Assembly (NCBI GenBank): GCA_036940085.1
Contig: JALLBK010000017.1
Location: 1-64,000, forward strand
Direction of reading: 5' to 3'
DNA: 64,000 nucleotides
Origin: Discostella pseudostelligera
Lineage: Eukaryota; Bacillariophyta; Thalassiosirophyceae; Thalassiosirales; Thalassiosiraceae
Every line of letters starts with the position of its first letter. Position 1 is the first letter of the stretch. Shown piece after piece: positions 51,834 through 56,504 of the stretch. A model generated the notes under the pieces. It saw only the letters and a list, made by a program, of their open reading frames with translations, was not told the DNA's origin and did not search any database. Position numbers and translations under genes: made by a program.

Positions 51834-53022
51834 ATGACGACGATGGCGACGACCGCAATGATGATCCGGACGGCACGGCCGATATTCTTGCAGCGCGGCA
51901 TTATTCCAGTGGCGAACCCAACGATAAACCCAGCGATTGTAAACAAATCTTCGTCGATAATATGGTCTCGTCGACTGCGCCATTTGAATAAATCATCGTC
52001 AGCGTCAGTTGGCACGAAGGCGACGTGCCACCCAAGAATTTCTCCCGCGACGAATCTATTATTCAGCCGCGCAGTGCTCCCTCCCACACTCTTCCATTCA
52101 AGTCAACAGTATGCTGTAGTACGGATCTATTCCTCACAACAAGGTGGGGGGTCACCTCGAAATCGTCTTGTTTCTAGTCTGGGTATGATAGGTGCCGGTG
52201 GCATGTTATTGCTTGGCAAGGGCAAGTATTTGCTTGGCGCATTGAAATTGACAAAATTCGCATCGTTGGGTTCCATGCTGCTGACAGTGGGAGCGTATAC
52301 TGCATTTTGTGAGTGAAGAATATGGCATATTTTTGTATTCGTATGCATTCTGTTTCAATTAATTTTTTACGCTTGATTTTTTCTTTTCAGATGGTCTGCC
52401 CTACGCAGTTGGAATGACTTCCCTCATTTTAATACATGAGAGTGGACACGCATTAGTTATGAAAAAGCTTGGTATACCATTTAGTCCCATGGTATTCATT
52501 CCATTTATGGGAGCAGCCGTCGCAATGCGAAAACGTCCTAAGGATGCCTACGAGGAGGCACTGGTTGCATTTGGTGGACCAGTACTTGGAAGTGTTGGTG
52601 CATTAGGATGTGCCGGTGCTGCTCATGTTATGGATAGTCATTTACTATTTGCACTTGCTGATTTTGGATTCATGATCAATCTATTCAATATGATTCCATT
52701 GGGAAGTATGGATGGAGGGCGGATATGCGGTGCAATAAGTCCATATGCGGGTGTGGTCGGATTGGGGATTGGAGGGATGATGGCCTACGAAGGAATGATA
52801 TTCAATCCAATCTTTTACTTGATTTTGTTGGGTGGAGGATATGAGACATTTATGAGATTTTACGATCCTCTTGGTCATGCTCCGCCGAATTATTATCTGA
52901 TCAAACCTGGGCAGAGAGTGGCTATTACCGGTGGATATTTTGGTCTTGTGGGGGCATTGTTCGCAACGATGGCATGGAATCGTCAATATATGCGGACACC
53001 TGAACAGTTGAAGAGACAATAG
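51834..53022 (+). CDS. M50 (site-2-protease-like) membrane metalloprotease
   Basis: Two exons (51834-52308 and 52391-53022) give 368 residues. The N-terminus is basic, hydroxylated and lacks acidic residues, so a mitochondrial transit peptide is likely. The membrane domain carries the zinc motif HESGH (174-178) and the second metal-site motif LFNMIPLGSMDGGRICG, both intact, with FGGPVLGSVGALG between them. M50 enzymes cut substrates inside membranes. A targeting signal plus a minimal catalytic core with no PDZ or CBS domain is the plain form of the family. The substrate is unknown. Confidence 0.88.
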
Positions 53023-53300
53023 AATGGATCGCAATCACAATTAGGCATAAGTTTGGTCATTGCGGAACAATCTGGAATAATCTTCATATTCGGGATGGAA
53101 ATAAATACTCCTACATGTCAATTCTTTCTCAAGATAGCTTGTCTCCTGCAGCTTGTAGACGTCAGTCGTTTCCATGTCCAGCGTGTAATTTCGACTCATG
53201 ACCGAAAGCTCACAATTTACTTTCTGTGCTTTCTGAGACATCCGACGACCACGACCACCACCTGCCCTCCACCGTAAGGACCCTCTCTCGGTTTATTAGG

Positions 53301-53825
53301 ATGTTGGGGATGTTGGATAAGCGAAGAGATATCGAAACCATGGAACGTGAGTTTGCTGAGAAACTGCTTGCTGTCGTAGAGGCAGTTCAGGTCCAACAAC
53401 TGAAATTGCTGAGCTCTGCTATCACTGAGCAAGAGCAAAAGTATCTTGCAGACATCGAGCTTGCCACACAAGAGTCTGAGATGCTTGAGATATCAAGGTT
53501 AGAGGCGGAGGAGTGGTGCGGGGGATTCGAGGCGGATTCAGCCACCGCTGAGCAAGAGCAAAAGTACCATCGAGATCTCGAGCTTGCTACACAGGAGTCT
53601 GAGATGCTTGAGATATCAAGATTGGAGGCGGAGCAGAGGTTTGAGGCGGATTCAGCCATCGCTGAGCAAGAACGAAAGTTCCGTGCAGCGCTCGAGCTTG
53701 CTACAGAGGAGTCTGAGATTGTGGAGGTATCAAGGTTAGAGGCGGAGGAGAGGCTCAAGGAAATCGAGGAGGATATGGTAGCTGAATTGTTGACATTCAC
53801 GCGCTTTGCGGATGAGGGAGCGTAA
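53301..53825 (+). CDS. Coiled-coil protein with three ~40-residue tandem repeats
   Basis: From the first in-frame ATG (53301) this gives 174 residues. The body is a Glu/Ala/Leu-rich coiled coil built of three tandem units, each with EQE(Q/R)K(Y/F)...(I/L)ELAT(Q/E)ESE(M/I)(L/V)E(I/V)SRLEAE. Repeat starts at about 53427, 53550 and 53664 give spacings of 123 and 114 bases, and the first two are highly similar at the base level, so the expansion is recent. The frame is open upstream to 53226 without an ATG, so an upstream exon or a partial gene is possible. I recognise no family. Confidence 0.5.
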   Translation: MLGMLDKRRDIETMEREFAEKLLAVVEAVQVQQLKLLSSAITEQEQKYLADIELATQESEMLEISRLEAEEWCGGFEADSATAEQEQKYHRDLELATQESEMLEISRLEAEQRFEADSAIAEQERKFRAALELATEESEIVEVSRLEAEERLKEIEEDMVAELLTFTRFADEGA

Positions 53826-53984: not shown

Positions 53985-56504
53985 TCAGTTTGATTGCGTC
54001 TTATTACCATCCTTCTTTTCTAACTTTTTCATTTGCTCAAGCCCACGCCATTCATCCATTTCTCTCACTACCTCGATTGGGAGCACATCTCGAAAAGATG
54101 GAAGTTCCGCAACGAATAGCAAAGAATGGGCCCATCCAGGATAGTTAGAAAACCGATCACGAAACAAATCACCTACGCGCTTATATATGGTTGGAGTGAT
54201 ACTCTTTGCTCCTCCCAGAACTGTCGAATCATAATCTCGACACGCAATATGCTGGACATGAACATCTACGGGAATTGCATCATCTTGATCCAATGAAAAT
54301 AAAGCAATACAGTCTGCAACTTTCCTGCCTATGCCACTGAACTTAATCAACTCATCTTGAACCGTCTGAGATTCGGGTGTTGTACGAAGCTTTCGCAAGT
54401 AATCATCACCTCCGCACTCTGCAAGTAAGTCCCTAGTTTCGATCAAATATTTTGCCCGATAGCCCAAACCCAGTGCACGCAACTCCTCTTCCGAGGCATT
54501 CGCAAGAGTGTCAAGTGTCGGAAATTGAAATAGTGATGTAGTTGCGATGTCACCAACATCATTGCGTACCGGCAATTCCATCATAAATTTACCATACTTC
54601 TCTCGAAATGATGATAGCATCTTGGTAATTCGCGGTATGTTATTATTGCCCGAACAGATGAAGGAAAACATACATTCGATGGGGTCTTGCCGAAGAATTC
54701 GAACCCCAGGTATGGCCGTAGCAATCTTGGATAGCCTTGCATCCTGCCGTGACCATTCGTCATAGAGTGGAGCAAGTGGTATCTCAAGCCGGAAGTACCT
54801 TTGAAGATCTTCCTTCACGTTTTGCGTCGGTCCACAGAGGACGCGGCACATGGTTGTTGTGGGAGTTTCTCTGATAGATAGAACTCTATTTTGAAGGGGC
54901 CCGACCCACTCGTTGGCATTATGTACTCCCCATGCCGATTTCTGTGGCGATGGCGTGGTAGCAGCCGTGTCCGAATCATTTTCGACTACCAGCCAATTGA
55001 AGCATTGTCCATTGGTAAGTGTAGCCGACGGTCTCAATTCCTGTGGTGGTGCCTCGAGATCGATCCAATCGTTCTCTGGAGTCAACTTTGCAAGGTCGGA
55101 TGAAAACAGGCGAGCAGTAGGAGCTTTGGAAGGAGAAGGAGTTGTGAGTGCCTTTGGACTTTTGGACTTGGTCTGCTTTGTAGGAGTAGCATGAGACTTG
55201 ATCATATCTGGAGTTGATTGGCGCAGCTTCTCACTCCGACCTTTGGATTGGTTCCATCTATGATAGTCCGCCAGTCCAGGATCATAACAACCTTTCTCCC
55301 ATGCATCTCTCTTCTCCAAATAGGTGAAACTGGCTGCCGCGGGAGAAACACTCGGCAAGCATACAACCTCGATCGAATGCTCACAGATGCCATTATTTGA
55401 CCTCTTTGACTTGTTCATAACAGCCTTGAGCACACGTTGTGACATTTCATCATTCGCTGCCCGGAGCTTGCCGTCCATAAACCAATCCGAGAAATGCTTC
55501 ACAAACAGCTGTCCACCGGTGGTACCATTGGCAATGACAATCCTTTTGATGTATAAATGTTCAGCCGTATCAATAATATTTCCATCAGTATTGTACAATG
55601 TGCCCTCGCAAAACTCTCGTATTCGATTAGGAATTTCGTCTTGGATATCATTGTCCAAACTTCCCTCCCTTTTGCATTCGGCCACAATGTCCCACATAGC
55701 AAATCCTTTCGAGACCAACAGTTCCAATTGTTGCGGATACTCTATTATCTTATTTTCATCATATCTTAAATGACTGTGATATGAGGCATAGGGTTTGCCC
55801 GTTGCGGTGGAAACTGCCAATGAGCGTCGAAATCCTAATGCATCCCCGGCAATGTACCAAAACGCATTTTGAGGATGTGCGAACATTTCATTTCTCTCGA
55901 GTGAAGTTGTGGATGGGTGTGTTCCGAGAATGAGAGTGTGTACTGGTGGGAAGGACGCGTTTATTGTTGGTGAGTTATTTGCATGGGCGATGGTGGAACT
56001 TGCAGCAGTAGCAGACGCGGTTGTCGCATGTGCATGAAGTGATGCTCCACCCTTGACTGTCATGACATTTCCCCACCAGGCTGGCTCGAATGATTTGGTA
56101 CGTTTGACAGTGTTTGTTCCTGATGCTGATATTGTCTTTTTCTTCTTCTTACTGCTCGTACTGGCTTGAGATTTTGTCTTGCGCTTAGTGGATAATTGGA
56201 TATTATCATCATTTATAGTCATAGAACTTTTTCCAGAAGAAGGAGACGAGAAGTATCGAGATGTAGTTTTTGATGACACCGACCGGGCTGACGACCTCGG
56301 CGACTGTCGACGTGTGATAGAAGCCATCGTCGTCGTAGCAGCTGCTGCAAAATTAGCAGAGGTACCAAGTCGCTGCACCCGAGCCGAAGAGTAGCGTGAT
56401 ACGCACGATATTACTAGAGGCCTTCCAACTCGAAACAGGCTAATGGAGATAGTCAATGAGAGTAGGTGCGTGCGCAGGATCAGGCTTGGATTGAAGTGGG
56501 GCAT
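53985..56504 (-). CDS. Fusion of hypoxanthine-DNA glycosylase (UDG family 6) and OGG1
   Basis: This is an 839-residue single-exon protein. The N-terminal ~140 residues are basic and Ser-rich with TKRKTKS and KKKKK (possible nuclear signal), although the first 60 residues could be an organelle signal. Residues about 185-415 are a uracil-DNA-glycosylase-superfamily domain: ILGTHPSTTSLERNEMF (192-208), HPQNAFWYI and CLPSVSPAAASFTYLEKRDAW (382-402), the family 6 hypoxanthine glycosylase pattern. Residues about 465-820 are OGG1: LTNGQCFNW, SGNNNIPRITKM, and the HhH-GPD core SGIGRKVADC with the nucleophile Lys728 and catalytic Asp747 in IPVDVHV. Both catalytic sites look intact. It should remove deaminated adenine and 8-oxoguanine in base-excision repair. 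Confidence 0.87.
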   Translation of the reverse strand: MPHFNPSLILRTHLLSLTISISLFRVGRPLVISCVSRYSSARVQRLGTSANFAAAATTTMASITRRQSPRSSARSVSSKTTSRYFSSPSSGKSSMTINDDNIQLSTKRKTKSQASTSSKKKKKTISASGTNTVKRTKSFEPAWWGNVMTVKGGASLHAHATTASATAASSTIAHANNSPTINASFPPVHTLILGTHPSTTSLERNEMFAHPQNAFWYIAGDALGFRRSLAVSTATGKPYASYHSHLRYDENKIIEYPQQLELLVSKGFAMWDIVAECKREGSLDNDIQDEIPNRIREFCEGTLYNTDGNIIDTAEHLYIKRIVIANGTTGGQLFVKHFSDWFMDGKLRAANDEMSQRVLKAVMNKSKRSNNGICEHSIEVVCLPSVSPAAASFTYLEKRDAWEKGCYDPGLADYHRWNQSKGRSEKLRQSTPDMIKSHATPTKQTKSKSPKALTTPSPSKAPTARLFSSDLAKLTPENDWIDLEAPPQELRPSATLTNGQCFNWLVVENDSDTAATTPSPQKSAWGVHNANEWVGPLQNRVLSIRETPTTTMCRVLCGPTQNVKEDLQRYFRLEIPLAPLYDEWSRQDARLSKIATAIPGVRILRQDPIECMFSFICSGNNNIPRITKMLSSFREKYGKFMMELPVRNDVGDIATTSLFQFPTLDTLANASEEELRALGLGYRAKYLIETRDLLAECGGDDYLRKLRTTPESQTVQDELIKFSGIGRKVADCIALFSLDQDDAIPVDVHVQHIACRDYDSTVLGGAKSITPTIYKRVGDLFRDRFSNYPGWAHSLLFVAELPSFRDVLPIEVVREMDEWRGLEQMKKLEKKDGNKTQSN

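Follow-up and report, generated by a model that had tools for sequence, protein, structure and literature searches.

A fused family 6 hypoxanthine-DNA glycosylase and OGG1 in the diatom Discostella pseudostelligera, with a candidate MLH1-docking motif in its disordered tail

The window analyzed in this study, a 64,000-nucleotide stretch of the genome of the diatom Discostella pseudostelligera (contig JALLBK010000017.1, positions 1 to 64,000), contains on its minus strand, at 53985..56504, one gene in which a family 6 hypoxanthine-DNA glycosylase (HDG) is joined to the 8-oxoguanine glycosylase OGG1. The fusion of the two in one frame is confirmed, and the product is probably a genuine double glycosylase that arose by a single fusion event, with the peptide SRYF in its N-terminal tail as a candidate MLH1 tether inherited from the HDG parent. 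To our knowledge, the enzymes of base excision repair almost always occur as separate proteins that find their lesions independently. In HDG-OGG1, two enzymes that share neither fold nor substrate are tied in a 1:1 ratio, and the tail motif suggests a route for handing both glycosylases to mismatch repair. The HDG family, known biochemically from prokaryotes, is also placed here in eukaryotic genomes.

Gene organization

All features of the gene described below lie on the minus strand. The frame runs from its ATG to a stop codon at 53985-53987 and encodes 839 amino acids without interruption; because the open frame comprises 845 codons, only six of them ahead of the ATG, little room is left upstream. 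The initial annotation had proposed one continuous, intronless frame with both domains in one polypeptide, and this proved right: TIGR04274 is matched together with the Pfam OGG_N and HhH-GPD models, and the sequence elements that it had quoted (GTHPS, HPQNAFW, LPSVSPA, Lys728, and Asp747) are all located in the protein. Within the assembly, the fusion protein is the sole match to itself, to OGG_N, and to TIGR04274. Relatives were collected as the union of the best 120 of 170 and the best 120 of 129 matches, which gave 233 proteins, or 234 with that of the window. Both domains are present in 55 of these (window included), HDG only in 109, and OGG1 only in 70, and chance is excluded because of the domain E-values and the recurrence of the pair in 55 of the 234 proteins. 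For the full-length cDNA that had been proposed as a check, support comes from relatives: P0013 and P0017, which are fused proteins from MMETSP transcript assemblies, are labelled complete and carry both domains; no cDNA was seen from D. pseudostelligera itself.

The HDG domain

The HDG (UDG family 6) domain covers residues 186-425 (55230..55949). It is matched by the NCBIfam model TIGR04274 (DNA-deoxyinosine glycosylase) with 85 bits against an equivalog cut-off of 80 (E-value = 5.4e-24), and all ten proteins scanned with this model (four fused, six lone) are above the cut-off. The broad Pfam UDG model PF03167 gives 14.5 bits, below its gathering (naming) threshold of 24.3; the placement of the N-terminal half in the UDG superfamily, as initially annotated, is nevertheless upheld because of the specific model and the fold match. 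The first structural match to the HDG piece of the AlphaFold model is 2l3f from Methanosarcina acetivorans, and MUG and TDG are among its fold neighbors.

Conservation was counted over 51 fused proteins, with the fragments P0120, P0148, P0187, and P0227 omitted. GTHPS (residues 194-198; 55911..55925) is kept in 45/45 and Asn213 of HPQNAFW (residues 210-216; Asn codon 55866..55868) in 49/49 fused rows reaching the respective site. In LPSVSPA (residues 383-389; 55338..55358), V386, S387, P388, and A389 are found in 51/51 rows, as are Trp271, Asp272, Arg279, Asp284, and Lys398. Asn213 corresponds in the alignment to residue 39 of 2l3f, and the Asn of the N-x-F-W motif is presumably the catalytic Asn39 of Methanosarcina barkeri HDG, which was reportedly described by Lee in 2011. 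The diatom domain thus shares the family model, the nearest fold, and the Asn with family 6 HDG, which was first reported from M. barkeri. It differs in its length of approximately 240 residues, with inserts relative to prokaryote-like HDGs, which are 175-187 residues in full, as well as in its position in a eukaryotic clade, its fusion to OGG1, and its tail motif.

Pairwise identities show that the domains are conserved far better than the tails. In the pair with Thalassiosira exigua P0012, the identity is 68% for HDG and 74% for OGG1, whereas it is 29% for residues 60-129 and 18% for residues 153-185. The OGG1 half is better conserved than the HDG half in six of seven pairs (e.g., 74% versus 59% for P0015); the order is reversed for P0002 (HDG, 95%; OGG1, 90%).

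The OGG1 domain

The OGG1 domain (residues 476-805; 54090..55079) contains OGG_N at residues 485-612 (78 bits; cut-off, 23; E-value = 8.3e-22) and HhH-GPD at residues 614-758 (46.6 bits; cut-off, 26.2; E-value = 4.7e-12), and residues 516-805 match human OGG1 (PDB 1ko9) with 193.8 bits (E-value = 4.7e-56). Lys728 in GIGRKVAD (residues 724-731; codon 54321..54323) aligns with the Lys of GVGTKVAD in the human enzyme and is Lys in 39/41 fused rows reaching the site, while Asp747 in PVDVH (residues 745-749; codon 54264..54266) aligns with the Asp of human PVDVH and is Asp in 40/40. We take these residues to be the equivalents of human Lys249 and Asp268, respectively. The Pfam matches and the alignment with human OGG1 bear out the initial annotation of a C-terminal OGG1 with both residues in place. 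In sum of domains and catalytic residues, the diatom half resembles human OGG1; on the other hand, it stands behind an HDG and has GWAH, with His, in place of the human GWAQ, with Gln. On sequence grounds, the catalytic reading of both halves is strong. As a separate observation, residue 619 (54648-54650), which is beside the OGG1 sequence NNN, is Gly in the window protein; the 43 fused rows reaching it have Ser (40), Thr (2), or Gly (1), and the near-identical P0001 has Ser.

Predicted structure of the tail and linker

In the AlphaFold model, which as a whole matches OGG1 structurally, the predicted local distance difference test (pLDDT) score is ≥90 at 487/839 residues, and the low stretches lie in the tail and the linker. 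The N-terminal tail (residues 1-125; 56130..56504) is disordered, with a pLDDT of <50 throughout. The segment preceding the HDG domain (residues 130-152, KRTKSFEPAWWGN...; 56049..56117) is largely ordered (pLDDT of approximately 92 and 86 over residues 131-150) and is 55-87% identical with seven relatives. The linker between the two domains (residues 426-475; 55080..55229) is disordered at residues 431-459, and its identity with the seven relatives ranges from 27 to 98%.

The tail consists of a leader (residues 1-59), a further in-frame Met (residue 60; 56325-56327), and a basic stretch after it. This layout, in which leader and second Met (56325-56504) precede the basic segment and SRYF, recurs in relatives. 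When leaders were scored as hydrophobic at a mean hydropathy of ≥1.5 over 12 residues and the motif was taken in the wider form S[PRKS][YHF]F, a hydrophobic leader before an internal Met shortly ahead of the motif was present in 11 of 30 fused proteins with the motif, that of the window included. A hydrophobic leader was rejected as proof of dual targeting, as shuffled leaders reached the threshold in 7.75/15 cases versus 11/15 observed. Because this excess is weak, it is only a guess that starts at Met1 and at Met60 yield two targeted proteins.

Distribution and origin of the fusion

The same fusion was found in named relatives, i.e., D. pseudostelligera (89% identity), Thalassiosira profunda, T. 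exigua, Thalassiosira sp. AJA248-18, and Cyclotella cryptica. Four named fused hosts were checked for order, and all are Thalassiosirales. In Skeletonema dohrnii, also of the Thalassiosirales, a fragment limited to the HDG part (P0190) has an N-terminal tail that is almost that of the fused P0017. Some of the 55 fused proteins end inside OGG1, six of them near OGG1 query position 92-93, and this common end point looks like a shared intron. Separate genes are present elsewhere: Nitzschia inconspicua (Bacillariales) has a lone HDG (P0141) and a lone OGG1 (P0106), and Odontella aurita (Eupodiscales) likewise has P0162 and P0074, respectively.

The HDG tree was built from 15 of the 55 fused and 38 of the 109 lone proteins, hand-picked for spread, together with 19 prokaryotic rows. 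The latter are 12 bacterial loci (13 were chosen among at least 80, and one was dropped because of a stop) and 7 of the 109 lone HDGs, which we labelled prokaryotic. The 15 fused rows are monophyletic (100/97) and nested in a diatom-type clade of 36 rows (99/97) with the lone HDGs of Nitzschia, Odontella, Corethron, and Phaeodactylum. The 53 eukaryotic-side rows are split from the prokaryotic rows, a sample of bacteria near the query with no archaea, with support of 100/100. The OGG1 tree has a branch (100/99) that separates 12 fused rows from all 70 lone rows.

The simplest history is one fusion of two resident diatom genes, because the fused HDGs nest among diatom HDGs, and Nitzschia and Odontella keep the two genes apart. 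The initial annotation had suggested transfer followed by fusion; as a recent event, this is not supported by the nesting or by the split from the prokaryotes. If the gene was ever acquired from a bacterium, the transfer would predate the divergence of the diatom rows from the other algal rows, and an older prokaryotic donor is possible. The description of the family as best known in prokaryotes fits the biochemical literature consulted, but several algae have it as well.

The S-[PRK]-[YF]-F motif

SRYF (residues 82-85, in KTTSRYFSS; 56250..56261) lies in the disordered tail, where the pLDDT is <50, and is a candidate MLH1-docking MIP box. The pattern S-[PRK]-[YF]-F in HDG proteins is a new observation of this study: it occurs in the tails of 58 of 164 HDG proteins (26/55 fused, 32/109 lone). 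Tails of at least 4 residues, which the counts by end require, are available at 45/55 fused N termini, 52/55 fused C termini, 107/109 lone-HDG N termini, and 91/109 lone-HDG C termini. The motif is present in 26/45 fused N-terminal tails (0.31 expected from shuffling) and 0/52 fused C-terminal tails, and in lone HDGs in 26/107 N-terminal (0.5 expected) and 6/91 C-terminal tails (0.18 expected). It is absent from both the N- and C-terminal tails of the 70 lone OGG1s (0.52 and 0.06 expected, respectively). The six lone HDGs with the motif in the C-terminal tail are P0154, P0164, P0170, P0171, P0178, and P0184, of which P0170, P0171, P0178, and P0184 group with P0188 of Prymnesium parvum in the HDG tree.

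When the same letter classes were arranged in all 24 orders over the 164 HDG proteins, the median count was 1, compared with 58 for the order in question. The one other high order, [PRK][YF]FS, occurs in 21/164 proteins; as S precedes every site in 21/21 proteins, this order is the motif itself read one position later. An origin from composition alone was rejected by the shuffles and the reordered classes. A PIP box (Q-x-x-[ILMV]-x-x-Y/F-F) was likewise rejected, with 0/68 sites fitting. Thr or Ser precedes the motif at 48 of the 68 sites, and Arg, Lys, and Thr are common at positions -2 to -4. Since the motif is present in fused and lone HDGs and in 0/70 lone OGG1s, it can be assigned to the HDG parent and is older than the fusion; it is found at either terminus.

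Peptides of the form S-P/R/K-Y/F-F in disordered regions of repair enzymes are known from FAN1 and from the yeast proteins Ntg2, Exo1, and Sgs1, and Ntg2 is itself a glycosylase. The SPYF of FAN1 serves as a MIP box that engages MLH1 at its S2 site (PMC8424649), and MIP boxes have also been described in Ntg2, Exo1, and Sgs1 (PMC9243396). By analogy, SRYF may dock on MLH1. The algal motif differs in that it belongs to UDG-superfamily genes, sits at either protein end, and is a candidate by sequence.

Other repair genes in the genome

MLH1 is present in the same genome, on contig C66, and has, in the alignment, a Glu at the docking-site position numbered E669, the numbering being that of a human MLH1 presumed to have 756 residues. 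A frame on contig C175 (L013:1949-3211, minus strand; partial) encodes a protein with HhH-GPD and SAP domains that carries the peptide SSRTSKYFTQ ahead of its catalytic domain; it is nearest to endonuclease III (TIGR01083, 87 bits, below the cut-off of 211.7). Neither AAG (PF02245) nor MutY was found in the 23-Mb assembly, where the MutY matches were weak and fell on the HDG-OGG1 gene and the endonuclease III-like gene. A second OGG1 and a second HDG were also sought there and not found. These absences are provisional because the assembly consists of 963 contigs with no completeness figure.

A second double glycosylase, Fpg-UNG, is encoded on contig C88 (L014:488-2464, plus strand) by a 659-codon frame with Fapy_DNA_glyco, H2TH, and UDG domains. 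Its UNG half is above the cut-off of TIGR00628 (230.7 bits versus 185.75), whereas its Fpg half is below that of TIGR00577 (90.1 bits versus 203.3). Precomputed Pfam assignments give UDG and H2TH in 118 of the best 120 of 267 relatives; names among the matches listed are Stephanodiscus, Thalassiosira, Cylindrotheca, Fistulifera, Chaetoceros, and Nitzschia, which are diatoms, both centric and pennate. The S-[PRK]-[YF]-F motif occurs anywhere in the protein in 1 of the 120 relatives listed. Fpg-UNG resembles HDG-OGG1 in combining an oxidized-base and a deaminated-base glycosylase in one chain; on the other hand, its domains are unrelated to those of HDG-OGG1, and its range extends to pennate and other centric diatoms. 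Diatoms have thus joined the two kinds of glycosylase at least twice. No report of either fusion was found in a limited search of partial open-access literature.

Proposed function and alternatives

We propose that a single fusion on the line to the Thalassiosirales joined a family 6 HDG to the OGG1 of the cell via a short flexible linker. The HDG half would hydrolyze hypoxanthine, i.e., deaminated adenine, from DNA with the aid of Asn213, and the OGG1 half would remove 8-oxoguanine by means of Asp747 and of Lys728, the latter being the nucleophile that forms the Schiff base. SRYF, in the disordered tail derived from the HDG parent, would bind MLH1 and so bring both activities, which we infer together with the binding itself, to sites of mismatch repair. 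As no MutY was found in the assembly, a link to MLH1 would be useful at 8-oxoguanine:A pairs. A wider form of the proposal is that algal family 6 HDGs are MLH1 clients through SPYF/SRYF at either end, and that the fusion in Thalassiosirales extended the tether to OGG1, so that deaminated adenine and oxidized guanine would be removed where mismatch repair works; this is conceivable, and we put it forward tentatively, with more doubt than belief. Some HDG-bearing diatoms are amenable to gene knock-out.

Several observations speak against the proposal. The OGG1 half scores 223 bits with TIGR00588 (ogg), below the naming cut-off of 397.85, which is uncalibrated here on characterized OGG1, and four other fused proteins (206-226 bits) are likewise below it. 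The strict motif is missing from 19/45 fused N-terminal tails and from 77/109 lone HDG proteins; some gene models, such as P0001, begin downstream of the motif site. Related sequences inflate the motif counts: HDG clusters with any motif number 22/49 at 70% HDG identity, 7/19 at 60%, and 2/4 at 50%. The comparison of the MLH1 docking site concerns one residue only, and hydrophobic leaders exceed their own shuffles only from 7.75 to 11 of 15. Endonuclease V is present in the assembly, and HDG is therefore not the sole inosine route. Finally, the single VRR_NUC frame of the assembly, possibly FAN1, lacks an SPYF-type motif, which tells a little against docking; this frame has no NCBIfam match, and FAN1 is only a candidate identity. 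FAN1 was accordingly rejected as a positive control for the motif.

The proposal has to be weighed most carefully against an account that we rate a little short of an even chance, namely, that both domains are active, SRYF/SPYF is unrelated to MLH1 and serves another partner or as a modification site, and the fusion only coregulates or cotargets the two activities. The disorder of the tail, the absence of the motif from many members and from the VRR_NUC frame, and the fact that docking is read from the motif sequence are all in keeping with it. It does not, however, account for an enrichment confined to the one order S-[PRK]-[YF]-F, with basic residues upstream and no fit to the PIP box, or for the MLH1 of the same genome with its docking-site Glu. 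The TSKYF of the endonuclease III-like protein also argues for docking, as it would be expected from yeast Ntg2 (PMC9243396, PMC8424649). That one half is degenerate, so that HDG only binds DNA for OGG1 or regulates it, or now acts on another substrate such as uracil or xanthine, we regard as unlikely: the lower conservation of HDG in six of seven pairs, the inserts, and the presence of MUG and TDG among the fold neighbors would fit, but the GTHPS, Asn213, Trp271/Asp272/Arg279/Asp284, and SPA positions are invariant in the rows reaching them (45/45, 49/49, 51/51, and 51/51, respectively), and TIGR04274 is above its cut-off in every protein scanned.

A recent transfer of a bacterial HDG into a diatom, followed by fusion, might be suggested by the at least 80 bacterial loci with HDG and by the first report of the family, which was from an archaeon (PMC8438529). 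It was rejected by the HDG tree, in which the fused HDGs nest among diatom HDGs and the eukaryotic rows are separated at 100/100 from the 19 prokaryotic rows, sampled near the query and free of archaea, and we consider it very improbable. The artificial joining of two neighboring genes in the assembly or gene model, which has only its general possibility in its favor, is of negligible probability, since the frame is continuous and the same domain order is found in independent contigs and in transcript-derived proteins; two genes or an artifact were rejected on these grounds. The reading of HDG-OGG1 as a double glycosylase with a candidate MLH1 tether is retained as the probable one.

Neighboring frames

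Near the fusion gene, on the plus strand of the window, a frame at 52414-53022 encodes an M50-type peptidase (PF02163, 39.6 bits). An open frame at 53226-53825, also on the plus strand, has no Pfam match and contains two tandem copies of a 114-base repeat (84% match).

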